From assembly GCA_026120185.1 (NCBI GenBank), contig JANUWF010001193.1, positions 620,001-684,000 on the forward strand: a DNA stretch of 64,000 bases. Direction: 5' to 3'. The notes under the pieces are model-generated. The model saw only the letters and a program-made list of their open reading frames with translations. It ran no database searches and was not told the DNA's origin. Each line of letters begins with the position of its first letter. Positions within the stretch are counted from its first letter, which is position 1. This DNA comes from Voacanga thouarsii (Eukaryota > Streptophyta > Magnoliopsida > Gentianales > Apocynaceae). Made by a program: the position numbers and the translations under genes. Shown one piece after another: positions 8,301-59,500 of this stretch.

Positions 8301-8363
8301 CGAGCCCTTCTCACAAAATTGGAGAATAACCTCCTTTTAAGGGCAAAGCCTACCAAAATTTTA

Positions 8364-17900: not shown

Positions 17901-20432
17901 TTAGTCTTTGAACTTATGAGCTGCTCAGCTTCCAACTTACCTATGACAAAGCCTGCAAAAGTTTTGGCGTCTGTTTCTGTGTTGCTGGAAGATTTGCTGT
18001 CACCAATGTCTAATCTCACAATGGAGAAATGGCTCGAGATGGTACCAAGTTCGAGCTTTAGAATCTCCAAACCTATTTGTCTGAGGGTGGCAATCTCAGT
18101 TACTGTGCCAACATCAGCACCTAATACTCTTCATATGATTCGCTCCAGGCCATTCTCAAAAAGTTCTTGTTTCTTTCCACTGCCGGGAAAACTTCAAGTG
18201 GCTAAGAGCTGGACACGCGTTATTGATGACAATGGCAATGAAATAATCAGCCTCCAAATGAGGTATATATTCTACGTTTGTTACTAGTGTATCAGTTATA
18301 GTGCCATGCTGATGGAGAATCTATTTTTTAGATGATTGTCTTAGATCCCCCAGAAAAATGAGACTTCAATTTCTCTAAAATATCGTTGATCTTGTTAGAT
18401 ATATCCATTCATAGGTATATAATTTGGACATTAGGAATGTGTTTAGTTTGCTCTGAAAGAGGTCTTTTGCTTTCTTGAATTTATCCTTGTTACTAGTGGA
18501 AGAAGCTTAAGCTTGTATCATAGAAACACTTGGACATGGTTACTAATGGATTCTGCTCTACTTTCTTCGTTGGAACATTTTACTTAGCATGTCATATATA
18601 TGGTCATCAATGTGTACCTTTCACATTCTTCTTACCTGACTGGAAGGACTGACATTATGCAACTTCAGAAAGAGTTAGAATATGATGATAACATAGGTGG
18701 TTGTTCTTTTTGGGTCATCTATTTTGTGGGTTGAATTCACGGAATCAAGTGTTAAAGTTTCGTAGATGACAAATTCTGGCATTGTTGCAGAGATTTTAAA
18801 AGGCCAAAAGATAACAAGGATAGCATGTTGAGAAAAGAGGTAATTGGCATCACAAAATCAGGTGGAACACGTACTTGTGCTGAATTTACAGGGATCGAAT
18901 GGTTTCTCATCAACTCTTGTTGGTCCCTAAAGCTTCCGAAAACAATTGACAAAGAAGGATACATTTTCAAGTTAATTGGTGATCACAATGTAAGCATTTT
19001 TCTCTCTTAATGTGTTTCTTTTCAGAGTAAGGAAAACGTTTAATCATGTGATATTGCAAGTTCAAATTGGATTTTAGTATCTCCTGTTTGCAATTTCTTC
19101 CTCTTGCTGGCTATCTGCAAGGGCATTGTTAAAATATAACAAACCTAATACTATCGTGCTAGATCCCTTTAACTACAAAGCAATAAATAAAGTTAACATA
19201 TCCCCTTTAGAAGCACCTCTTCATAGCTTGCACCTTCCAATGCAACTATAAAATTATCAAACTGTGATTCTATCTATCAATTTAGTTGCATCTTTATGCC
19301 TGATCATTGGGCATCCACAGAAGAGTTCAAACAAACAGATTTTGCCTTCTTGGTAATGCATGCGATTAACTCCATAATTACTTTTTGAGAAGGCACTCAT
19401 TCCAAAGAATAAAATTTATAAAGCAAATCAGAGATGCCAAATCTGTAGAACATCTTCTCTTTAAAGTTCAAAAGTGGGCGATGTGTAGACTAAATTTATC
19501 TCCATCCTTGGCACAGGTGAAATTCTTTCCTGGTAGAAGAATAGACTACGAACCAAAGCACTGTGAGCAGCAGAGGAATGACCAGGATTTTTTGACAGCA
19601 GTTGAATTCTCTGCTGAAGACCCATATGGCAAGGCAGTGGCATTGTTTGACTTGAAATCAGGAACCATAAAGGTAGATCTGTACTCGGTAAACATTTGTT
19701 TTTGAATGATTTTGTCACTCTCTTACCATAATGTTGTTTCCTTTCTAAAAATAGGTCAAAGAAGGATGGTTATTGTTTCCTGGTTTGGTACTGGCTTTCA
19801 TACTTGGTGAAATCACTAGAAAAGAAGGGTATAACAGCCTCATTTCCAGTGGGGAGAATCTGAAGGTAAAGGAGATCACTGTGGGTTTTAATGGGTTCCA
19901 TGTAGAAGGTAACAAAACAAATCAGTCAGCAGTACAAGGAAAAATGGTGGATTTCAATGCACCTAGAGGAAATGCAGTGATGCCAGCAAAAGGAGGAACA
20001 GGCTGTGGTTCTGGTTGTGGCAGTGGATGTGGAAACAACGTCAGAAGTGGGGATTGTGGGGGATGTGGCAGTGGTGGTTGCGGAAATATGGTTAAGCATG
20101 GAAGCTCAGCTGGTTGTGGTGGAGGTTGTGGTGGTGGTGGTGGTTGTGGCGGCAATATGATTGAGAAGGGAAGCTCTGGAGGCTGCGGTAGTGGTTGTGG
20201 GGGTGGTTGCAGAAGTATGGTTCAGAAGGCAAGCTCTGGAGGCTGTGGCAGTGGTTGTGGCAGCAGTTGCGGCAATATGATTAAGAAGGGAAGCTCTGGA
20301 GGAGGAGGAGGCTGCGGTGGCGGTTGCGGAGGAGGAGGAGGCTGCGGTGGCGGTTGCAGCGATAAGTTAGTAAATGGAAGTAATGCTGGCAATGAATGCA
20401 TCAATGAACAGGGAAAGGCTCTGCTTGCTTGA
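14933..20432 (+). CDS. Glycine-rich domain protein (GRDP1/GRDP2 family, DUF1399)
   Basis: Eight coding exons: 14933-15090, 15583-15700, 15802-16056, 16302-16757, 17724-18262, 18791-18989, 19517-19672, 19755-20432, giving 852 residues. The N-terminal half carries two related modules, each with a W-x-W/H-H signature: CEWVWHCHRLNP near residues 81-92 and IDLIWHTHQLYP near 221-232. This is the DUF1399/GRDP domain. A middle region (VMLEFVDVKNVPERPKGSLF) resembles the C2-like part of the family. The last exon encodes a Gly/Cys-rich tail, about residues 707-835. Arabidopsis GRDP1 and GRDP2 are linked to salt/ABA stress and auxin-related growth; that role is family knowledge, not seen here. No signal peptide or membrane segment is evident. 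Exon 4 ends at a weak donor (GAG then GTGGTG), the least certain junction. Confidence 0.93.
19993..20367 (+). repeat. Tandem Gly/Cys-rich coding repeats in the GRDP tail
   Basis: Imperfect units of roughly 55-65 bases encode patterns such as KGSSGGCGSGCGGGC followed by a short insert with N/S-M-I/V-K (GNMIKKGSS, RSMVQKASS, GNMIEKGSS). At least five units are visible. Unit number is likely to vary between alleles. Confidence 0.85.
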
Positions 20433-21077: not shown

Positions 21078-21320
21078 TGTTATGAAATTTTGACACTGTT
21101 AAAATACAATATATCCATAATAAATTTTTTACTATTATTTGTACAAAAATTTCTTCACACTTCTCTCTTTCTTTTTTCTCACAATTTTCTCTAACAATTC
21201 TCTCCCAATTAGTATATTTCTCAAGTTTGGAGAAGAGCTCTATTAGTAGAATGTATTATCTTAATGGTGGATATCCATATCCACTAATAAAATTAGTGGA
21301 TTCTCCACTAATTCATAACA
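21078..21320 (-). repeat. 3' LTR of copia element A
   Basis: 243 bp, TG..CA ends. It aligns with 26083-26375 apart from a gap of about 50 bases in the middle (loss of the stretch after AACTCTATTTATAGAGCT in the other copy). Age-related divergence is visible throughout. Confidence 0.85.
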
Positions 21321-21399
21321 CTCCTCTTGAATGTCTATTATATAAAGAATATGTCTCGTTAAAACCTTACTAGATAAAAATTCAGTGAGAAAAAAAATT

Positions 21400-24300
21400 T
21401 AGTGAAAGAAAAATAGTACACTATTCTATATGTCTGCTTATTATTCTACCTGATGAGATAATTCCTTTAAATCTTTGAATCGACGCATACTGATTTTATA
21501 TCTCAACTTCTCAAATTTGTAGTCGCTAAAGTCTTCGTGAAAATATCTGTCAAGTTGTCAAATGACCGAATTTGTAACACATCAATTTCACCTTTCTTTT
21601 GGAGTTCATGAGTAAAGAAGAATTTTGGAGAAATATGTTTTGTCCGATCTTCTTTAATATATCTTCATCGTAATTGAGTTATGCAAGTTGCATTGTCTTC
21701 ATAAAGAGGAGTTGGAATATCTCTTATAGATGATAATCCACAACTTTCTCAAATATAATCAATCATTGATTTTAACCATACATATTCTCGACTTACTTCA
21801 TGAATGGCTATAATTTAGCATTATTTGAAGAAATATTTGTTATAAATTGTTTTGTAGACCGTCATGATATAACAGTATTTTTACATGTAAATAGATAGCC
21901 CGTTTAAAAACGTGTTTTATATGGATTAGATAAATAATCAACATCTGCATAACCTATCAATGTTGGATTGATTTTATTTGAATGAACTAATTCAAGATCA
22001 ATTGTACCTTGGAGATATCGAATGACATATTTAATTTCATTCCAATGTCATCGTATTGGTGAAGAATTAAATCTTGTTAATAAATTGATAGTAAATATAA
22101 TATCAGGTCGTGTATTATTAGCAAGATACATCAATGCAACAATTACACTGAGATATGGTACTTTAGGACTAAGGAGTTTTTCATCATCTTCTTTAGGTCG
22201 GAAAGGATCTTTATTCACATCTAATGATCGGACGATCATTGGAATACTCAATGGATGTGCTTTATCAATGTAAAATCTTTTTAGAACTTTTGCTATATAT
22301 GTTGATTAATGAATAAATGTTCCACTTTCCAAATGTTCAATTTGTAAACCAAGGCAAAATTTAGTTTTACTAAAATTCTTGATTTCAAATTCTCTTTTTA
22401 AATAATCAATTGTTTCCTAGAGCTCTTGTGGAGTTCCAATAAGATTAATATCATCAACATATATAGTTAATATTACAAATTTAGAATCAGATTTCTTAAT
22501 AAAAACACATTGACATACCTAGTCATTTTTAAATCTCACTTTCAATAAATATTTAATAAAACGATTGAACCACATACGTCTAGATTGTTTCAGAACATAT
22601 AATGATTTCTACAATTTGATGGAGTAATTTTTACGAGGATAACGTTTATATGCTTCAGGCATGCGAAATCTTTCAAAGATTTTCATGTAAACATCATTTT
22701 CTAAATTTCCATACAAGTAAACAGTGATAACATCTAATGGACGCATATCTATCTTTTTATATACTATCAAATTGATAAGATATCGGAGTGTAATAGCATC
22801 AATAATAGAAGAATAAGTTTCATCATAATCAATACATGATCTTTATGAAAAATCTTGGGTTACTAACCGTACTCTATATTATACTATTTCATTATTTTCA
22901 TTGCACTTTCGCACAAATATCTATTTGTTACCAACAGGTTTTACACCTTCCGGTGTTCAAACTGCAGGTCTAAAGACTTCACCTTTTGTCAGTGCATTTA
23001 ACTCCAATTGAATCGCATCTTTCTATTATAGCCAATCTTTTCTATACCGACATTCATCAATTGATATTAGTTCAGGATTATCATTATCCTATATAACATC
23101 AAGAGATATATTATATGCAAACATATTATCAATAATTGATTCGATCCGATTCTAACTTCTACCAAAAGTGATATAATTAATAGAAATTTTAGTGTTACTT
23201 TCATCAACTTTTGGTTCTTTGTCATCAATTCTCTCTTAGTCTTTATCATTCTTTTCTTCAATTTGATCGTTTGGATCATTTAATCCTCTTTTCTTTTGAA
23301 AATTTTTATCATTAGAATCAAGAGGTCGGTCATGCTTCTGGCATGCTTTTGACTCAGCAGCTATAAGTATAATCTTTTGTTATGTTGGAATTTCAATTCG
23401 AATAGGAACATTTATAACTGGAATATGCGATTTTGTAACTCTTCTGGAGTCAACAAAAGTGTCTGACATTTGATTTGCAATACTTTACAAATGAATTATC
23501 TTTTAAATTTCAAATTCACACGCGCTTGTGCGTGAATTAAGATAATTTAATGATGTTATCCAATTAAGATATTTCTTATATTGTTTCTATTCTCCCCCTA
23601 ATTTAGATAATAATGATTCATCAAAATAACAATCAACAAATCTTACTATGAATACATCTCATGTCAAGAGTTCAATATACTTGATAATAAAGGGAGAATC
23701 ATATCCAACGTATATCCCCTTTCTTCTTTGAGGACCCATCTTTATATGTTGATTTGGTGCAATTAAAACATATACAGCACACTCAAAATTTCTTAAATGA
23801 GTAATATTTGATTTTGAACCAAAAGCTAATTACAAATAAGAGAATTTATGATAACTAATTGGCCTTAGACGTACAAATGCTGCAGCATGTAAAATAGCAT
23901 GTCCCAAAGCAGATGTTGGGAGATTTGTTTTCATTAATAATGGTCTAATAATTAATTGTAATCTTTTAATAAAAGATTCAGCAAAATCATTTTGTGTATG
24001 AATATGAGTTACAGGATGTTCAACATTAATCTCAATTGACATGCAATATACATCAAAAGCATGTGATAAAAATTCACTAACATTATCCAAACGAATATTT
24101 TTAATTTGATAGTCAGGAAATTGTGTTCGTAACTTAATTATTTGAGCAAATAATCTCGTAAATGTCAAGTTGCAAATAAATAATAAAAACACATGTGACC
24201 ATCGGGATGATGCATCAATTAAGATCATAAAATATCTTAACGGTTCACATGGTGAATGAATAGGTTCACAAATGTCTCCATAAATCCGTTTAAAAAATAT

Positions 24301-24953
24301 AGGACTTTCAACTCTTACTTTTATTGGTAATGGTCTAATAATTAATTTTCTTAGGAAACATGCAGTACATGAGAATTTTTTTATGCTAATATCTTTTTAT
24401 TTTTTAAGGGATGACCATATGTATTCTCAATCATTCTTCTCATCATGGTAGATCCCGAATGACCCAACCGGTTATGCCAAATGCTAAAAGTAGTAGGATC
24501 AGTAAATTTCTGATTTACTAGATGATGAATTTCACTTGTACATATTTTTGCAAAATATAGGTCAGTAGAAAAAGACGATAATTTTTCTAATACAGATTTC
24601 TTACTCAAATTAATTTGAGTAATATAAAGATGTTCAATACTATTTTTCTCATTTGTTTCAACATGATACCTATTTCTACGGATATCTTTAAAACTCAATA
24701 AATTTCTTCTAAATTTTGAGAAAAATAGTATCTTATCAATGTTAATTATTGTTCCTTCAAGTAACAATATACTAACTCCTCCGAAGCCTTCAATCACATT
24801 TGTACTACCGTTTATAGTATAAATATTTATTTCTCTCCTTTTGAGATAAGAAAAATATTTCTCATTTTTTAGTATGGTGTGTGTAGTTTCATTATCAATA
24901 ATATATACATCATCATTAACATCAGCTATCTGAACAAAAATATGTATATACAA
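21400..24953 (-). pseudogene. Copia pol remnant: protease/GAG-pre-integrase, integrase, RT, RNase H
   Basis: Minus-strand fragments in order. Around 24953-24381, the stretch with DNETTHTI and WHNRLGHSG matches protease and the GAG-pre-integrase zinc region (W-H-N-R-L-G-H). Around 24228-23830, MILIDASSRWSHVFLL and IRLDNVSEFLSHAF are the integrase core. Around 23270-22050 is the RT, in which the catalytic YVDD is still readable at 22461-22450. RNase H-like sequence follows to about 21480. Multiple stops and shifts make it non-functional. Confidence 0.85.
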
Positions 24954-24959
24954 ATGTAA

Positions 24960-26040
24960 ATATTATTAAAATATAATAAAAATTCAGGAATATCAGTGTG
25001 ATGCATTAATTCTTCTGAACACTGCTATCACTAATTAAATAGTCTATCATACTATCTGGATGTTCGAAAAAATCAAATACATCTATATGAGTAATATTGA
25101 TATTAAGAATCAATATCAATCGTCGTCAACATCATTCACTGGATGTTGAGAAAAATTTATTTCAACATTTTTATTTTTTCGTTTTAGTGAAACTTAATAT
25201 AATTCCACTAAATATTTAGTTGTACAACAATTATATGACCAATGACCTTTTATGCCACATTTATAACATTCTTGCATTTCTTTTTATTTTTCCTTATTAT
25301 CTTTTTTTCCCCACTTCAGATGGTCAGTATTTCTCACAACTTGATTATTATTGTAATAAGAAAAATATCGAGAGTGTCTATGACCATAAACAAGGCCACA
25401 ACTATGACTATGACTATGACTTCTGTTGGAGTCAACATCATTCACTTTTGGGAGTGCTATTGAGCTAGTTGATCTAGTTTCATGATTTTTCAATAATAAC
25501 TCATTATTTTTTTCTACAACGAAGAGAACAGTAATTAAATCAGTAAATTTTGTATACTCTTTTTCTCGATATTGTTACTGCAGGACAATATTCGAGATAT
25601 GAAAGGTGGAGAATTTCTTCTCCAACATATTTTCACCAGTAACTTTTTCTCCGCATAATTTTAATTGAGATGTAGTTTTATACATGACGAAACTATATTC
25701 ATTCATGATTTTAAAATCTTGCAACCTCATGTATAATTATTCATACCGTACAGTTGGTAGTATGACCATCTTTAAGTGATCAAATTTTTCTTTTAAATTT
25801 ACCCAGAGGATATATGGATCTTTGATAAGATATTCTATTTTCAAATTTTCGTCGAGATAATAACGGATAAAAATAAAAACTTTGACCTTTTGTTGTGCAG
25901 ATGCATTATTTTTTTTCTTTAATAGTTTCATTAAGACTTTCAGCATTTAGATACATTTCTGCATCGAGAACCCATAACATATAATTCTTTTCAGAAATAT
26001 CAATGGTTACAAATTCGAATTTAGTAAAATTAGCCATAGA
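24960..26040 (-). pseudogene. Copia gag remnant (UBN2-type) of element A
   Basis: The fragment at 25946-25737 encodes DPYILWVNLKEKFDHLKM, the conserved UBN2 gag pattern of plant copia elements (LW-x-NLKE-x-DH-x-K). The zinc-knuckle area near 25240-25290 is decayed. Interrupted by stops. Confidence 0.75.
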
Positions 26041-26082
26041 GATCAATAAATACGTACTTTTAGTCTTTTGGCTTTTGTAACG

Positions 26083-26375
26083 TATTATGAAATTTTAGCA
26101 GTGTTAGAATACAATCTACACACAATAAATCTCTAACTATTATTTACACAAGAATTTCTTTACACTTCTCTCTTTCTTTTCTCTCACAATTTTCTCAACA
26201 ATTCTCTCACAATTGTTATATTTCTCAAGCTTGAAAAAGAACTCTATTTATAGAGCTCTATTAGTGGAATGCATAATCTTTCACTAATATATATAAGTAA
26301 TGTCTCTACTAACTCTTAATGGTGAACATCTATATCCACTAATAAAATTAGTAGATTCTCTACTAATTCATAACA
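26083..26375 (-). repeat. 5' LTR of copia element A
   Basis: 293 bp. It carries TCTATTTATAGA, a TATA-like stretch when read on the minus strand. The inner end reads TATTATGA instead of TGTTATGA, a decayed terminus. Confidence 0.82.
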
Positions 26376-47930: not shown

Positions 47931-48818
47931 TCATACGTCACATTTTTTACAAGACCTATCCACGGTGGACACCACCATCCTCATCTGCTCCGGCACCGGC
48001 AACACAGGCACTGATGGAACCAAGTTGTAAACCGGTCGTTCTTGGAAGCCATTAACAAAACTCACTGGCACCACTCCGTATTGTGTAGCATGAAAGCCAG
48101 AGCCCACCATCGGTATCCGGTAATGTAATTGCGCCGCTGCTGCGGATTCTCCTCTACCTGCTACTTGACTGTGAACTGATCCCGCCTTCTGCGCCTCAAT
48201 GCCATTCCTGTTCCCATCGCCGCTCTCTTTAACAGTGACCGACCCAGATTTTCCTGGCACCACTGTACTTGGAATCGTCCAAAGGCTCAAATCAAATGTG
48301 GGATTGGTTAAAGCGGGGTTTAAATTTTTTGTATTGCTGTAATCATATTCCTTATCGAATCCAAATAGGTAATCCGGATTCAATGGGACCTCCGACCAGG
48401 ACTCAGAACTAGGCTTCGTCGGATTGGTTACCCCAGAGAGAAAAAGTCTAAACCTTGCCGGTTTACTCGACGGAGAAACCTTATCCTGCAAGCGGTCATA
48501 CTCGAACATCATGTTCTCGAGATCATCGTCGTTGATTAAAGAGATTAAAACATCGAGGTCTTCTCCAGGCAATTGATACTTTATGCAGACCTCAACGGAA
48601 TTAAAATTACAGAGAGAATTGAGCCTTACAACAACGTCGGAGAACTTGATATTCCTATCGACCGTTAACAGTTTGGTGTCACCGCCTATATACATGAGTT
48701 GCTGGTCGCGAGGCCGAGGCTGAATCTTCCCGCCATAACTGCACATAAGTTTCACTTTGGAATTTCCGGTAGAGAGTTTGGCAGAGGCTTCGCCGCCGCT
48801 CTCATGAAGTTTCGCCAT
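47931..48818 (-). CDS. PB1 (Phox/Bem1p) domain protein, octicosapeptide family
   Basis: Intronless, 295 residues. The PB1 domain occupies roughly residues 20-130: beta-strand VKLMCSYGGKIQPRP, then DTKLLTVDRNIKFSDVVVRL, and the acidic OPCA motif in YQLPGEDLDVLISLINDDDL. An acidic OPCA together with the Lys in the first strand suggests a PB1 able to use both faces. The remainder is low-complexity and Pro/Ser/Gly-rich, ending RSCKKCDV. PB1 domains assemble signalling complexes; in this plant-specific single-domain group the partner is unknown. Start at the first ATG, in a CGCCATGG context on the coding strand. The protein is complete, with no membrane segment. Confidence 0.93.
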   Translation of the reverse strand: MAKLHESGGEASAKLSTGNSKVKLMCSYGGKIQPRPRDQQLMYIGGDTKLLTVDRNIKFSDVVVRLNSLCNFNSVEVCIKYQLPGEDLDVLISLINDDDLENMMFEYDRLQDKVSPSSKPARFRLFLSGVTNPTKPSSESWSEVPLNPDYLFGFDKEYDYSNTKNLNPALTNPTFDLSLWTIPSTVVPGKSGSVTVKESGDGNRNGIEAQKAGSVHSQVAGRGESAAAAQLHYRIPMVGSGFHATQYGVVPVSFVNGFQERPVYNLVPSVPVLPVPEQMRMVVSTVDRSCKKCDV

Positions 48819-49967
48819 GGCCGCAGCAAAAGATGCAGAGAGAAGAAGCGGTGCGCAAGTATTATAGTAGCCTAGAAGGAATGTCGATATGCACTTTGCG
48901 ATGTTTTTGTATGTACGAGGGGGTGGTCATGATCACCTGTTATGCGGTAGCATGGTTTAGAGGTGAATTTGGGACTCAGATTTAATCAGGACCGACGATG
49001 CTTTGATCTGAGCTGGGGCCCACACGGTTGAGAGAATTGCGCGTACGTTGTATGGGTCCAGTTGGATTTGATAGGAGGAAGGATTAGGCTGGCCCCACGG
49101 GCTGCATGTACTCGATAGTGGTCGTGGGTTCCATTGAATTTATAACTCAGCAGATTTACGTAATTTTAATATTCAAATATCTGTTTTTTAATTTATTTCC
49201 TTCTATTGTAGACAGATTTTTTTAGAGGATGAACATATAATATTATCCTTGGGGACTTGATATAAGGTCCACAACTTTTTTTTTTTTTTTTTAAATCCTT
49301 GGGGTTTAGATTGTACATTTAATTTATATCATGTTATCTGATATATTAAAAAATAATAATAATAAAATTTGAATTTGACTTGTGTATATATCTTTTTAGT
49401 TTATAAGATAAAAAGAAAAATAAAAAATAAATTTCAAATTTAGCTCACGACTATATTTCTTATCTATAAAATAAATATAGAGAGCCAGAGAAAGAAAAAA
49501 ATAAGTATAATTTTTTTATTAAATTATAAATCTCCCTCAATCATGAAATTACATATCCAATATGACTAATAAATTATTAACTTAACTGCACAAAAGTGTC
49601 TATAATTTGATTTTCCGTTCCGATTTAATATAATTAAAAGGGGAAATTATAACTAATTTTTATTGCTTAAGCAAATTAGTCAATGGTAGTGTGCAGCCTT
49701 ACTTGGAAACTGCACTTTCCATTTTGGCTGTATATGGAAGATAGCAAAAATTGCCGCCCTTCGCCGGTCCTTCTTGTGCAGTCCCCAAATCCCTTTCTAA
49801 CCTGAAAATAATGGGTAAAAAGTGGACAATAGTCAGAGAGGGAGGAGGAAGGGGTCGGGGAGGCTCCCATTATATATATTTCTTTAAAAAATTAAAAATT
49901 TTAGAAAAATTCTTTAAATTTTTATTTGTCTATCTCTTCAAAAAAATTATAATAGTATATTATTTTG
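48819..49967. other. PB1 gene promoter and spacer to copia element B
   Basis: 48.82-49.13 kb is the promoter/leader, relatively GC-rich. 49.14-49.97 kb is AT-rich with a T-run at about 49276-49293. No gene recognised. Confidence 0.55.
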
Positions 49968-49972
49968 TGTAA

Positions 49973-50193
49973 TGTTATGAATATCTTAAAATTATTGAAA
50001 GTTCTATTAATTAGTAGAGGCTCCACTAATTATGAATTTATATGAATTATTAGAGAAGATTTTTATGGATGTCCACCGTTTAGTGGAGACAAAAGAAAAG
50101 AAAAAGAGAAATTCTTGTGCAAAGAATAATTAGAGTTTTATTAATGTGTAGTGTGTAGATTTTATTCTAACACTACCTAAATTTTATAATACA
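49973..50193 (+). repeat. 5' LTR of copia element B (internally deleted)
   Basis: 221 bp. Aligns with 54720-55097 at both ends. Compared with that LTR it lacks about 157 bases between TAGTGGAGAC and AAAAGAAA. The missing part contains the TATA-like TTTATAAATAG. Confidence 0.88.
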
Positions 50194-50229
50194 TTATCAG
50201 CACGAGTCTCTACCGTTATTAAAGTCAGA

Positions 50230-50862
50230 ATTCAGGTACGCATTTATTAATCTCTATGGTTAACCTTGCTAAACTCAAATTTATAATCTTGATATTTCTG
50301 AAAAAAAATTATATGCCATGGGTTCTCAATACAGAGATACATCTAAATGCTAAAAAGAAATATTTGACCATATGAAGATGGTCGTATTACCAACTGCACG
50401 GTATGAATGATTGCACCTGAAGTTGCAAGATTTTAAAATCGTGAATTTCGCAATGTATAAAATTACATCTCAGTTAAAATTATGCGGAGAAAAAGTTACT
50501 GACGAAAATATCTTGAAGAAGACATTCTCCACTTTTCATACCTCGAATATTGTCCTGCCGTAACAATATCGAGAAAAAGATATCCAAAGTTGACAGATTT
50601 AATATGAGTTATTATTGAGAAATTATGAAGTCAGATGAACTGGCTCAACAGCACTCCCAGAAGTGAATGATGTTAGCTCTAACATAAGCCATTGTTAGAA
50701 TCATTAGAATCGTTATAGTTGTTATAATCATTATAATCGTTATAATCGTAGTTGTGGTAGTGACTGTAGTTATGGTCATGGACACACTCGATATTTCCCT
50801 TATCACACAGAAATACTGACTACCTAAAGTAGAACAAAAAAGATAATAAGGGAAAAAGATAT
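50230..50862 (+). pseudogene. Copia gag remnant of element B
   Basis: Matches gag of element A (for example the stretch encoding GAAAAAGTTACTGACGAAAA and the GACATTCTCCACTTTTCATA region). The similarity stops inside what would be the zinc-knuckle area, right after GATAATAAGGGAAAAAGATA. Broken by stops. Confidence 0.75.
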
Positions 50863-51157
50863 GCCCAGTAATAAAAAGATATTTTCATTAATAATACGCA
50901 TCAAATTGTTGAGATATTACATTCGGATGTCAATATACTACATTACTATTAACAGTTCAGAAAAAAAAAATCATAAGTCACTTTTATTTCCTTCATTCAT
51001 CCCATTGGCGTTCACGTGAACTTGAGGATGCATGCTTGTAGTTGCTCTTTTTCAATAGAGCTGATAAATCTCGGGTGAATGTTTGTAGTTGTTCTGTTTC
51101 CATGTTTACATTAGAGGAAGACAAACAATTAGCAATTATGAATTTCAACTCCTCTTC

Positions 51158-52307
51158 TTAGGCATCCTCCTCATTTTCCTTCCCCTTTAAGCCAGCATCT
51201 AGACTAGCAGCAGAATTAGCCGTGAAGTTACTGCGCAATGAGTCTTGGAATTTTCTCATCCCCTTAAGTTTCTTATTATATTTGGCATTGAAGCATACTT
51301 GTCTCAATTTCTTTGTTTGGTCCTCCAACTGCGTATCAAGACTTTCTTCCACCAACTACTTTTCACATTCCAGTATCTCAATGGCTTCTTTCAACTTCTT
51401 CTCAGTCATATGTCCTCCTTCTTCTTTATTTTACATCTCCTATAAATCGAAGTGATATCATCGATTATTTACTTATAAATCTTTCATAGTTCCATACTTG
51501 CAAATTATAAATGTGTGTGAGAGAGAACCTGAACATTCTGGATTAAAGTCTCCAAGCTCATCAACTTTCTATGAGGCCATCGACGAATTCCCAACTCCCT
51601 ACATCTGTTCTTGAGATGTGTTAAGCCAATATTCAGTTTTTTGGCCGCGCTCTTGATTGGCAGGTAAAAGTATTGCGAAATGGTTTCTCTTGATAGTGTT
51701 TGGGAGTTATTACCATTCTTCTTTCTCTGCCTCTTAATCCTCTTCTTCTCTATAGGAATTTCGTCTGAAATAATATATTGAATTTCGACATTATGCATAT
51801 CATGGGTCCTCACTCCAAATTCATTACCAAGACCATTCATTATTTCTCCTAGAAAAGAAAATAATATCAGTAAAGATAATACCATTCAAAATCCATATTT
51901 GAATATATGATAACCTGGAATCATATTCTGATTTTGTTCAAAATCTATTAGAGAGTAGAAAGGATCATGCACAAGTATATCCTCATTCAGAGGAATAGTA
52001 TCAAGAGGAACAGTATTAAAAGTAGTTTCTTGCATGGGCAGATCAAATTGGTCCAAAGCAGTATGTTCACTGATTTACATAAAAAACAAACCAAAAAAGA
52101 GTTTAATTTTATTATCAAGTACACTAAAAAAAAAAAATGGAAGCTCTCAAAGGTATCTCACTTGAGATTAGGAAGAAGCAGTTGGATTGGAAAGGAAAAC
52201 ATATCAGGAGGAAGCGATTGGCTTGGAAAGGAAAATATATCAAAATCTGTTGCGTTAGAAACCAAGTCAAAATTTGACCATGTCTCAAATGAATTACGAG
52301 TCTCCAT
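51158..52307 (-). pseudogene. RKD-type RWP-RK transcription factor gene, captured in element B
   Basis: Plant RKD regulators bind DNA through the RWP-RK domain and act in egg-cell identity and embryogenic competence. Four exons on the minus strand: 52307-52162, 52069-51915, 51848-51529 and about 51439-51158, all with GT..AG borders and matching phases. Exon 1 begins METRNSFETWSNFDLVS. Exon 3 holds a complete RWP-RK domain: ISQYFYLPIKSAAKKLNIG, LTHLKNRCRELGIRRWPHRK, LMSLETLIQNVQ. Exon 4 matches the RKD C-terminal coiled coil (KKLKEAIEILECEK, LDTQLEDQTKKLRQVCFNAK) but has an in-frame TAA at its third codon and a TAG at 51358-51356. Translation would stop after about 161 residues, just past the RWP-RK domain. 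Either a pseudogene or a C-terminally truncated protein. It lies antisense to the retrotransposon. Confidence 0.88.
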
Positions 52308-52355
52308 ATCTGCTTTGTGATTTTTGTTTTTTATATTTACTAATAACTGATAACT

Positions 52356-52362
<7 letters not shown>

Positions 52363-52401
<39 letters not shown>
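52363..52401. repeat. (AT)n microsatellite in the RKD 5' leader
   Basis: About 19 AT units between the RKD start codon and its TATA-like box. Confidence 0.9.
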
Positions 52402-52407
<6 letters not shown>

Positions 52408-52518
52408 AAGAAGCAGAAGAGGTAGATGATAGGTGGAGGGACGGAGGAGAAGAAAAGACAAAGAGGAAGGGGGAAAGATGGTACCGGGAAGAGTGAGAAA
52501 AAAAATAAATAAAAAGAG

Positions 52519-52526
52519 ATATTTAT
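52519..52526 (-). promoter_or_regulatory. TATA box candidate of the captured RKD gene
   Basis: TATAAATA on the minus strand, about 212 bases before the RKD start. It lies inside the non-element DNA, so the gene appears to have been captured together with a promoter. Confidence 0.5.
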
Positions 52527-52653
52527 AATAGATTTCTCGACATTTTCTACTTATCATTATTTTCTTACATTTCTTTTCTTATTCTCTTGTGTAATCATTA
52601 TTCTCTTGTTATCATTTTCTTATATTTCTTTTTCTTTTCTCTTATCATTATTC

Positions 52654-54540
52654 CCTAAATTAAGGGGAGAACAGAAACAGTACAAGAAAGATCTTGATTG
52701 GACAACATCATTAAATTATCTTGATCTGCATACAAGCGCGTATGAACTTGAAATTCAAAAGATAATTCCTTTGTAAAGCATTGCAAATCAAATGCCAGAC
52801 ACTTTTGTTGACTCCAAAAGAGTAACAAAATCGCATATGTCAGCTATAAATACTCCTATACTAATTGAAGTTCTAACAGAACAAAAGAGTTTACATATAG
52901 CTGTTGAGCCAAAAGCATGCCAGAAGTATGGCCGACCTTTTGGTTTTAAAGATAAAAATCCTCGAAAGAAGAGAGGATTAATGATCTAGATAATCATATT
53001 AAAGCAAAGAATGATAAAGACCAAGAGAAAACTGATGACAAAGAATCAAACGTTGATGAAAGTAACATTGAAATTTCTATCAATTATATCACTTTCGGTA
53101 GAAGTTGGAATCGGATAGAAACAATTATTGATAATATGTTTGCATATAATATCGCTTGATGTTATACGGGATAATGATGATCCTGAACCAATATCAGTTG
53201 ATGAATGTCGGCATAAAAAAGATTGGCTACAATGGAAAGATGCGATTCAATCGGAGTTAAATGCACTGACAAAACGTGAAGTCTTCGGACTTGCAATTCG
53301 AACACCTGAAGGTTTAAAACCTGTTGGCTACAAATGGATATTTATATGAAAGCGTAATGAAAAGAATGAAATCGTACGATATAAAGCACGGTTAGTAGCC
53401 CAAGATTTTTTACAAAGACTAGGTATTGATTATGATGAAACTTATTCTCCTGTTGTTGATACTATTACACTCTGATATCTTATCAGTTTGGCAGTACATG
53501 AAAAGATAGATATGCACCTATTAGATGTTGTCACTACTTACTTGTATGAAAAATTAGAAAATGATGTTTACATGAAAATCCTCGAAGGATTTCATATACC
53601 TGCAGCATATAAACACTATCCTTGTGAAAATTACTCTATCAAATTGCAGAAATCATTATATGGCCTGAAGATATCTGGGCGCATGTGGTTCAACCATCTT
53701 AGTAAATAGTGATTGAAAGTGAGATTTAAAACTGACCAGGTATGTCCATGTGTTTTTATTAAGAAATCTAATTCTAAATTTGTGATATTAGCTATATATG
53801 TTGATAATATTAATCTTATTGGAACTCCTGAAGAGCTCCAAGAAACAGTTGATTATTCGACATCAAGGATGGTCATAAAATTACACTTTGCCTTAGTTTA
53901 CAAATTGAACATTTGGCAATTATAACATTTATTTATTCAACATATATAACAAAAGTTCTAAAAATATTTGGTATGGACAAAGCACATTCATTGAGTATTC
54001 CAATGATCGTCCGGTCATTAGATGTGAATAAAGATCTTTTCCAACCTAAAGAAGAGGATGAAGAACTTCATGATCCTGAAGTACCATATCTCAGTGTAAT
54101 TGATGCATTAATGTATCTTACTAACAATACACGACCTGATATTGCATTTACTGTCAATTTATTAGCAAGATTTAGTTCTTCACCAACACGACGACATTGG
54201 AATGGAATTAAATAAGTCCTCCGATATCTCCAAGCAGCTACTTCTTCAAATTATGCTGAAATTACAGCCATTCATGAAGCAGGTAGAGAATGATTCATTA
54301 TATCCAAGAAAGTTGTGGATTATCATATATCAGAGATATTCCAACTCCTCTTTATGAAGATAATGCAGCTTGCATAGCGCAATTACGAGGAGGATATATT
54401 AAAGGAGATCGGACACAACATAGGTCACCAAACTCCAGAAGAAAGGTGAAATTGATGTGCTACAAATTCGGTCATGTGATAACCTCGCAGAGATTTTCAC
54501 AAAGACTTTACCGACTGCAACATTTGAGAGTTGAGATATA
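52654..54540 (+). pseudogene. Copia RT/RNase H remnant of element B
   Basis: Reads [48 protein letters not shown] and TYSPVVD, then the RT core DVVTTYLYEKLENDVYMK. The catalytic box is YVDN at 53797-53808, not YVDD. RNase H similarity follows (ALMYLTNNTRPDIAFTVNLL). Stops interrupt at several points, including after KWIFI. RT activity is not expected. Confidence 0.87.
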
Positions 54541-54719
54541 AAATCGATATGCGTCGGTTTAAAGATTTAAAGGAATCATCTCACCAGGGGGAGTAATAAA
54601 CAGACATATAGAATAGTGTACTCATTTTCCTTCACTAGATTTTTTTTCCACTGGGTTTTTATCTAGTAAAGTTTTAATGATGCATATTTTTTATATAATA
54701 GATGGACATCGAAGGGGGG

Positions 54720-55097
54720 TGTTATGAATATCTTAAAATTATTGGATGCTCCATTAATTAATGGAGGCTCTACTAATTATGAATTTATGTGAATTATTAG
54801 AGAAGATTTTTATGGATGCCCACTATTTAGTGGAGACACCACTAATTAAGATTAGTGGAAGATGATGTATGCCATAATGTATTCCACTAATTAGAGCTTT
54901 ATAAATAGAGCTATTCTCTAAGCTTGTAATACACTATTATTTTGTGAAAAAAGATTAGTGAAAGAAAGATTAGAGAAAATTGTGAGAGAAAATTGTGAGA
55001 GAAAAGAAAGAGAGAAATTTTTGTGCAAAAAATAGTTAGAGTTTTATTAGCGTGTAGTGTGTAGATTTTATTCTAACACTACCCAAATTTTATAACA
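54720..55097 (+). repeat. 3' LTR of copia element B
   Basis: 378 bp, complete. TATA-like TTTATAAATAG at about 54898-54908. Ends ..CCAAATTTTATAACA. Its 5-bp flank TGTAA equals the flank of the 5' LTR. Confidence 0.9.
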
Positions 55098-55102
55098 TGT
55101 AA

Positions 55103-56559: not shown

Positions 56560-59500
56560 TCATATTCGGACTGAAAAGGTATGCTGTACATCTTCCAACA
56601 TTAATATGTGATCACCTAAAGGCAATATTTTGTTCCCTTGGTCATCAACGATACTAAGATGTTCACATGGATCTACCAAGATGCTTGTTTGAGCAGATCT
56701 ATGTGACAGGACATGAACACGATCAAATCCAATGATTTGTTTGTTTGGAGCACCCAAAATGATTTTTGGTGCTCTAGAAAACAATAATACAACTGCACTT
56801 CCATCCAAGTTTCCATTGTTCATCACAGCAATCCGGACATAGAATCTCAATGATTCGCAGAATGCCACATCTTTGACATTAATGTAGTCAAGCCCATTAA
56901 CTCTCAAGTGAAGCATGTTCCTTCTTAATTCAGCATTAATATATCCAGATAAGCTCAGTCTTTCAGGTGCCAATAAAAATTTGTAACAGAAATTCGTATA
57001 GCTCAATCCATGTCCAAACCCATAAACTCTACCTCCAGTGTAAAACCGATATGTTCTTCCAGGATAACCACGAGACGGATCAGCTCGCATGTTCATGTCA
57101 CTCATTGGTACCCGGGTAAATGATTCAGGATACCAGGTCACTGGAAGTCTTCCACCTGTGTTCATTCACACAAGTACATTAATGTTACGCCACCTGAGAC
57201 TCTGATGTTCAAATCCCTTATAGAATAATAACAATTGGCTTCTAATAAACTTTGTAACTCCCTTAAGTATTACATAATTTCACTTAGTTTTTTAATGATG
57301 TTTATGGCAGTTAACTGTTCTTATGGCTCTATTTCTGGCATAAGTGATTTATACCTAGAAATAAACTGCAGACTATGCTATAATTACAGAGGAATGAATG
57401 ACTTGTTTTTATACAGACACTCAAATTTATTCTGTTTTCTATACTGACCTGGATTGTAATCTCCAAAGACAATTTCTGAAAGTGCTTTGCCACCAGTCTC
57501 TCCAGGGTATCCTATCCAAAGAATGCTAGCTATTCGGGGATCTCCTTCAGCAAATGATACATCAATAGGACCCCCACCAGTCAGAACTAAAACCAGTGGT
57601 TTTCTGCTTACAGCTGCCACAGAGGTAATTATAGTCATCTGATAACCAGGTAAAAGAAGACTATACCGGTCATGGTCTTCAGTTTCTTGTGATAAATCCA
57701 GCCCAGCTACCATAATAACATATTCAGCTCTTCTAGCAATAGAAATAGCTTCTGGAAGAAGAGCCGTTGAATTGCAAGGCACATCTACGCAGCCAATTGC
57801 AAAAGATGTTTCTCTTACATAGTCTTGAATCTCTTCAACAATGCTTTTCGGATTGCATGAAACTCCTAAAGACAGAAAAAGTTGCTTCAATGTGATTATC
57901 TAACAGGCTATTAGATTTATAACAACATTTTTGGGGTTTATGAATTGATCTTTTTCATATTTTTGGTTACTTGTAGTTAGGTTGATCAGTCCAATATAAA
58001 GAAGTCGAATTCCCCAAAAACAATGAAAATAATACGATCCATCAAGTGAAAAAGAACTTTGTTTCAGGATATAAGCTTATTACCAAAAACACTGCCAGAT
58101 AAGCTTGTTACTGGTTCTTTCAGTAACATACTGACAGCACTAATTGACCAGATTATTATTGTTCGTTCTCACCAAAAACACCTGCAAAGTTAACTTGTGG
58201 GATTGTATTGTACCTATTTATTTGTTCATTCTTGCAAAAATTCTCAATTCAATAGGTAGAAAAAGAAGGATCACAGAAAGATAAAATGATAAACCACACT
58301 GACCAAAATCAACTGACTCTAAAGATGTGGGATATTCAAACCTGTGTAATCACCGCCAATGTCACTTGCATTTGCCAGCGGACCAATAACAGCTAATGAA
58401 GACACAGCTTTCTTATCAAAGGGGAGGAAATTCTTGTCATTTTTGAGAAGCACAATACCCTGCCTTGCTGCTTCAAGTGCTAGTTTCTTATGCTCTGAAT
58501 TGCAAACATCACGAGATCCAAACTCACTAAACTGATCATTTGCGGGGTTTCCATCAAAAATTCCAAGACGCAGTTGAACAGAAAACAAATTGAGCAGAGC
58601 TCTATCTATGTCTTCTTCCGGCACCTTCCCCTGATCAATTGCAGATTTCATGTGTCGCAGCATATAGGTTCCACAATTAATATCCGTTCCTGATGAAAAC
58701 TGACCACGATAAGTTTGATAGCACATAAACAAGTATATCAAAGTGACAATAATGAGCAGAGGATTTAAATACCTGCTTTTAGAGCAAGAGCAACAGCATC
58801 CTCGGGAGTTCTGGTGAAATTGTGATTTTCATATATTGTGGCCACAGCATCACAATCAGAAGTGATATATCTGTAATTTTCCATTAAAGGGGAAGGTTTG
58901 AGTCTCTATGACCAATTACATCTGCAAGAATGTATGTCAATCATAATACAAGTAGGAAATCATCACCCTTTGAAATTCCAGTCATTTCGGGCTTTATGTA
59001 AGAGATCCTTGTCTGCACACGCCGGAATGCCATTCACGCTATTGTATGAACACATCAAGCAGCTTGCTTGGCCCTTCTCAATACAACTCTGGAATGGTGG
59101 TTGATATGTATCCTCCATATCCTGCTTTGTGACCTGAAGTATTGATGACCAATTCTTTCAGAAGCTCAAGTATATATATGAATACTTGGTCGTACCCTGG
59201 TATTTGTTAAGGTCTCTATACCCACTGAATTCTATTCAATAAAGTAGATAGATTGAGTTTATTTTCTCTTTGGCCTAATTTGAATGTAAGCACCCCCAGT
59301 ACTCTTAGTGAAGTTGACAATAACCAGGAAGTAAGTCCAACACTTAGAGGATTAGCCCTGCTGAACACATGTCCACTGTGAAGGAAATGCATTATCCTTA
59401 TTACTGTGTTGATAGAAACCTTAAATCATACCAAAACCCCATCATTGAAGACAATCACACTTTAAACCTGTTATGAAATTCAAACTACAAGATGTCTCCA

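Follow-up and report, generated by a model that had tools for sequence, protein, structure and literature searches.

The window analysed here is a stretch of 64,000 nucleotides from Voacanga thouarsii (contig JANUWF010001193.1, positions 620,001 to 684,000 of the forward strand), and its positions 49973-55097 are occupied by a copia element, hereafter element B (copy W in the comparisons among copies), that holds a gene of the RWP-RK transcription factor type, an RKD gene, in antisense orientation between gag and the reverse transcriptase (RT).

Structure of element B and of its RKD gene

Direct reading of both ends revealed the same TGTAA as 5' and 3' target-site duplications (49968..49972 and 55098..55102, no strand), so that the span and the perfect duplication given in an earlier note on this DNA were correct to the base. 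The 5' long terminal repeat (LTR; 49973..50191, plus strand) is 219 bp long and lacks about 159 bp internally compared to the 3' LTR (54720..55097, plus strand; 378 bp), and longer 5' LTRs are present in other copies. The aligned parts of both LTRs are 91-93% identical, with a Kimura two-parameter (K2P) distance of 0.096 across the common parts. The 5' LTR is followed by a leader and a truncated gag full of stops (50192..50860, plus strand), in which the homology to element A, a related copia element of the window, stops near 50856, ahead of the CCHC knuckle of A. Then come the gag-side capture junction (50857..50896, no strand), which by eye is also present in L083, the deepest copia-RKD copy, the RKD insert, and the RT-side junction (52578..52643, no strand), of which about 45-70 bp were given by BLAST to neither element A nor hAT copies; near the end of the latter junction lies ATCATTATT, which occurs in element A too. 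A decayed RT-RNase H portion of pol (52644..54660, end approximate, plus strand) completes the element, with an RVT_2 match (PF07727, E 2.2e-11) at 53476-53709; the RVT_2 match of L083 reaches E 2.3e-26.

The insert contains four exons on the minus strand, exon 1 at 52162..52307 with its ATG at 52307, exon 2 at 51915..52069, exon 3 at 51529..51848 and exon 4 at 50993..51439, with GT/AG at all three introns and the RWP-RK DNA-binding domain (PF02042, E 2.9e-23) at 51553..51696, in agreement with the four-exon antisense gene that had been described between gag and RT. The 3' flank or untranslated region (50896..50992, minus strand) is 89% identical, over 50898-50970, to the RKD borne by the hAT copy L050, and the 270 bp upstream of the ATG (52308..52577, minus strand), which include a (TA)n run near 52358-52402, form a co-captured 5' flank and putative promoter. 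The gene of element B has no exon frameshift and three in-frame stops, all of them in exon 4, and is therefore a decayed copy. In copy L032, located elsewhere in the genome, the RKD is open throughout and encodes a product of 366 amino acids, in which RWP-RK was the sole domain above the Pfam cut-off and PB1 was not detected. RKD proteins have an RWP-RK domain without PB1, unlike NLP proteins, and RKD genes are genes of egg and embryo identity. From the presence of RWP-RK and the absence of PB1, the captured gene most probably belongs to the RKD subfamily. Comparison of the exon-3 frame with solved structures gave no match at E 0.1.

Element B has the TG...CA ends, the 5-bp target duplication and the RVT_2-type reverse transcriptase of Ty1/copia elements, and the place upstream of RT where their integrase lies is taken by the RKD gene. 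It is classed as a deletion derivative of a Ty1/copia LTR retrotransposon. The region replaced can be read in element A (21080..26375, minus strand), a stop-ridden and decayed element with LTRs and an integrase-type pol where B has RKD, the pol of both being 85.7% identical across 1.6 kb. At the equivalent place of element A, a zinc knuckle was recognised by eye and Pol_BBD was found at E 5.2e-9; gag_pre-integrs (E 2.4e-6) fell narrowly below its cut-off, and the integrase core (rve, E 0.0037) gave a weak match far below its own. This integrase-region stretch of A has no counterpart in element B. The section replaced, described earlier as protease-integrase, extends from the gag zinc knuckle through the integrase, and the RKD insert in its place measures about 1.7 kb.

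With respect to the surroundings, a host gene for a PB1-domain protein flanks the element at 47931-48926 (minus strand), and a likely GH3 glycosidase, with an Fn3-like match above the cut-off and a GH3 C-terminal match below it, lies at 56560-57899 (minus strand). Tandem repeats of roughly 60 bp at 20048-20324 resemble part of a glycine/cysteine-rich coding sequence.

A mobile family of high copy number

Copies were counted from the best-scoring places in longer first-look candidate lists of this genome. In a PF02042 search, 150 places were scored of 3618 candidates, and all 150 were above the cut-off with a stop-free match; the 30 that were read comprised 27 copia-RKD copies, one hAT-RKD copy (L050) and two host-like RKD genes (L039 and L040). 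When the insert was used as query, 40 places were scored of 3680 candidates, the 39 others being 84-92% identical in the main match, and RKD was fused to copia DNA in all 29 other places read. With a gag-side query, seven other copies were read and all seven had contiguous gag-RKD DNA. As these joins recur in other copies, the arrangement of element B is not due to chance.

The 3' end was fetched for 12 further copies, revealing the 3' LTR in 11, each with a perfect 5-bp duplication and all of these different (AAAAT, CATGA, AGAAT, TTTAT, ATTTT, GGAGT, TTATA, ATAAG, TTTGA, ATAAC and AATAT); in the twelfth, L030, a 3' LTR was not found within the piece fetched. Element B is a member of a high-copy, non-autonomous Ty1/copia family that has inserted repeatedly as a unit. 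The earlier note had proposed insertion of the chimera as a unit and, as a check, a search for further copies that share the insert and have their own duplications. The copies read, with duplications in 11 of the 12 examined, answer that check, establishing a mobile chimeric family and removing the concern that TGTAA was a coincidence between LTRs of different insertions.

In the nine copies measured, the K2P distance between LTRs was 0.031-0.075. With the rate quoted in PMC10011142, 1.3e-8 per site per year, which may not suit this plant, this corresponds to about 1.2-2.9 million years. In L028, L030 and L032, a second, inverted LTR adjoins the 5' LTR of the element, which suggests a nested or palindromic insertion.

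Selection on the captured gene

The reading frame of the RKD was compared with that of RT by means of insertions and deletions (64 copies for RKD and 26 for RT) and of nonsynonymous to synonymous rate ratios (dN/dS; 25 copies, RKD and RT alike), the copies found through the domain being left out of the 25-copy tests as biased toward an intact exon 3. Among the 39 copies covering the full RKD, 25 had no exon frameshift and 14 had one or more, all six splice dinucleotides were kept in 19, and the ATG in 37. Where an indel was common to three or more copies, it kept the frame in all 11 cases in RKD exons (6 of 6 when the repeat-bearing exon 1 was excluded), in 4 of 17 in introns, where several events fall at one site, and in 0 of 7 in RT (Fisher p for exons vs. 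RT 3e-5, or 6e-4 with exon 1 left out). A similar picture emerged from the 37 copies that were identified by DNA matches alone, with 7 of 7 exon indels frame-keeping, three of them outside exon 1. Private exon indels were multiples of three in 7 of 31 cases. The result for exons 2-4 against RT indicates that breaks of the frame were tolerated in the RT of source copies but not in their RKD.

Pairwise dN/dS was 0.27 (0.16-0.49) for the RWP-RK domain compared to 0.99 (0.74-1.36) for RT, with 0.38 for the rest of exon 3, 0.48 for exon 4 and 0.81 for exons 1 and 2. Because dS in RWP-RK was twice that of RT, a weakness of the plain ratio, which it flatters, a context-corrected test was run with context-specific rates taken from RT. 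For variants present in three or more copies, RWP-RK had 7 nonsynonymous changes (N) vs. 17 expected and 14 synonymous changes (S) vs. 13, while RT had N 86 vs. 81 and S 21 vs. 27; stops were 5 vs. 12.9 expected in RKD and 8 vs. 8.6 in RT. Private variants of RWP-RK showed no constraint (omega 1.32). In a 62-copy test, stops were depleted in the class of four or more copies (10 vs. 31.8). We conclude from these comparisons that the RKD frame and its DNA-binding domain were apparently kept in the source lineages, single copies decaying after insertion; the RKD cargo looks maintained while the element's own RT is dead.

Several observations weigh against this interpretation. A single full-span copy of the 39 (L032) is open throughout, and 14 are frameshifted in exons. 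Two of the eleven exon indels, both 15-bp deletions of exon 2, may represent a single event that was aligned in two ways, and some of those in exon 1 are repeat-unit changes. Five exon indels were present in just two copies, four of them frame-keeping and one frame-breaking. The context-corrected omega of the whole RKD was 0.84 when variants carried by at least three copies were counted and 0.94 for all variants; exons 1 and 2 were near neutral, exon 4 (0.73 private vs. 0.96 in three or more copies) lacked the contrast seen for RWP-RK, and RWP-RK itself rose to 0.76 once two-copy variants were added. In the 62-copy test, run with intron rates, omega for the deep class was 0.87, and stops were in excess in the class of two to three copies (22 vs. 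13.6). Regarding mobility, no open integrase source was present among the sequences read, and element A is decayed.

A hAT transposon as second carrier and the origin of the gene

The same RKD gene was found in L050/L069 and L070, which are 88-94% identical to each other across more than 4 kb and whose RKD is about 74-75% identical to that of element B, introns included. L070 encodes the RNase-H domain of hAT transposases (PF14372, E 1.5e-26), and in L069 (825-8337) and L070 (681-6001) the RKD lies between the ends of a hAT transposon, adjoining and antisense to the transposase. The inverted ends of L069 are at 825-844 and 8318-8337, with the RKD inside, and its flanking 8-mers agree by eye in 5 of 8 places, the remainder being transitions. 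Of the 40 hAT places scored, at least 16 had an RKD match within 1 kb, 13 of them coming from one list of RKD places and three more being C486, C807 and C854.

In a tree rooted on the two host RKDs, whose outgroup branches are long, the 16 sampled copia RKDs formed one clade (100/98) with the three hAT RKDs outside it, at the base, and the monophyly of the hAT versions was not settled. A tree in which L083 was held with hAT was rejected (p-AU 0.006); the grouping of the hAT RKD beside L083 had appeared with midpoint rooting and changed on rooting with the host genes. Both capture junctions also look alike, by eye, in element B and in L083. One clade and like junctions together indicate a single copia capture among the copies sampled, and speak against several.

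As for the donor, L050 had been considered as a host gene and proved to sit in a hAT element, and L084, another candidate, is a broken hAT copy. The host-like RKD gene L040 matches the window over part of exon 3 alone (68%), and L039 has no match to it, so that both were dismissed as donors. An origin from processed cDNA is discarded by the presence of introns, 19 of the 39 full-span copies having the six splice dinucleotides intact. No ordinary host donor with matching introns was found among the matches listed, which element copies fill. In addition, five RKD matches (C940:782990, C958:2875294, C976:1389782, C531:2977623 and C1640:38776) resemble L040 beyond the domain, with 36-41% identity over about 120-150 residues and some with stops; they possibly represent another RKD group.

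Interpretation and alternatives

Overall, the best explanation is very probably that an RKD gene was captured once by a copia element, that the chimera has since inserted repeatedly as a unit, and that the RKD frame was kept as RT decayed. The immediate source would be either an RKD that a hAT transposon was carrying by then or the donor from which hAT had also taken it. Being antisense to the genomic RNA, the gene would retain its introns, as the earlier note expected and as follows from known biology, and it could be expressed from its own 5' flank. As the family lacks integrase it must move in trans, and it may be mobilised by element-A-type relatives, whose integrase-region DNA was found at 39 other scored places with 85-89% identity (4581 first-look candidates).

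That the RKD was instead the ancestral occupant of the site, flanked by two unrelated element fragments, has practically no probability left, since the same arrangement lies on many contigs and the duplications described above accompany it; this alternative is refuted. It is highly improbable, too, that the constraint came from outside, with a functional RKD of the host or of hAT refreshing the copies by gene conversion or by being captured again and again: the hAT copies do hold the same gene, and L083 has an RKD that is 84-85% like that of hAT and a gag-plus-RKD part 75.8% like element B against 83.6% on the RT side, but the likeness of both junctions in these two copies, the single copia clade and the rejection of L083 with hAT speak against it. 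A separate question is whether a single host locus supplied the gene to copia and to hAT in independent captures, for which the chances are real although somewhat short of even. The RT-side stretch without hAT or A assignment (about 45-70 bp in element B, 26-50 bp in L083) and the unsettled monophyly of the hAT versions would fit two captures; on the gag side, however, the limit of the sequence common to hAT and copia is no more than about 20 bp away from the copia junction of L083. That a host locus whose introns match was absent from the matches listed is a weak argument against this alternative, as element copies fill those lists. On the tree and these boundaries, we favour a transfer from hAT to copia over a shared donor.

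It could also be argued that the RKD is a passive filler, a hitch-hiking capture that tolerated the loss of integrase, with frame retention due to few young source copies and to indels of repeat units. The stop and/or exon frameshift present in 38 of the 39 full-span copies, a whole-gene context-corrected omega near 0.9 and exon-1 indels of repeat-unit-like lengths such as 27 and 57 bp agree with this, but neither the 6 of 6 frame-keeping indels in exons 2-4 vs. 0 of 7 in RT nor an RWP-RK constraint confined to variants of three or more copies and absent from private ones does, and we hold it to be unlikely. If the gene was maintained, its benefit must act via helpers, via expression in the transmitted cells or via the host, because RT was not kept. 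The most likely role, tentatively put, would be that RKD aids the expression or transmission of the element in egg- or embryo-forming cells. A stronger version, selfish cargo, in which element-made RKD biases the cell with a new copy to an egg or embryo fate, or activates the family there, is doubtful; were it true, a gene for the identity of egg and embryo would have travelled in turn with two unrelated transposon classes, and a copia family would have retained its RKD frame while surrendering its own enzymes.

Here, a gene for a transcription factor, together with its introns and 5' flank, has taken the place of part of the enzymes of an element and multiplied, with signs of selection within a parasite whose RT is no longer kept, providing a case for asking why an element retains a developmental regulator and a case of a captured gene common to a DNA transposon and a retrotransposon. 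In practical terms, unmasked copia-RKD copies would yield many false RKD genes in annotation, and searches for RKD genes oriented to apomixis could be misled by them.

Comparison with known systems

No published copia-RKD or hAT-RKD family was found among open-licence PMC papers; the accessible text of PMC12786077 has no mention of RKD, and the word 'RWP' is absent from the main text of PMC9289625. The latter, in its accessible part, reports a screen of 121 angiosperm genomes without domain gain in Copia elements, and an AlkB demethylase open reading frame in Gypsy elements of Phalaenopsis; these are likewise a case of a host-type domain retained by an amplified LTR family, and differ in being Gypsy elements of about 25 kb.

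The arrangement is closer to the additional open reading frames (aORFs) of plant LTR retrotransposons, such as Grande gene23, RIRE2, Retand and PvRetro13 (PMC7264820, as far as its accessible text goes), in which an extra antisense gene is retained in many copies, that of Grande with a promoter of its own. As in conserved aORFs, the RKD is present in many copies and probably coding-constrained, weakly so outside the RWP-RK domain. In contrast to it, aORFs are located downstream of pol, ahead of the 3' LTR, instead of replacing the integrase region, and according to the same text they lack clear protein similarities except for an SMC domain in PvRetro13, whereas the RKD is a host-type gene with introns. 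Transduced genes, among them that of maize Bs1, are likewise host gene sequences within LTR elements and are described there in one or a few copies, compared to 150 RWP-RK places scored of 3618 candidates here, with copia-RKD in 27 of the 30 read. In Citrus, CitRKD1 is also an RKD-type RWP-RK gene affected by a transposon, but there the insertion of a miniature inverted-repeat transposable element alters the expression of the host gene (PMC6090715, accessible text), whereas here the transposon carries the gene.

The nearest parallel comes from pearl millet, in which the expansion of LTR elements was linked to that of the RWP-RK family and RWP-RK genes overlapping intact ones were compared, with dated elements 'encompassing' such genes (PMC10011142). 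The earlier claim that no RKD case had been described stands insofar as no report of a copia-RKD family was found, and has to be qualified by these overlapping genes. That case concerns a grass genome and RWP-RK genes that may or may not be of the RKD type, and its accessible text covers neither superfamily, orientation, junctions, integrase loss, selection tests nor a second transposon class. Taken together with pearl millet, the Voacanga family raises the question of whether the uptake of RWP-RK genes by transposable elements is a recurrent event.

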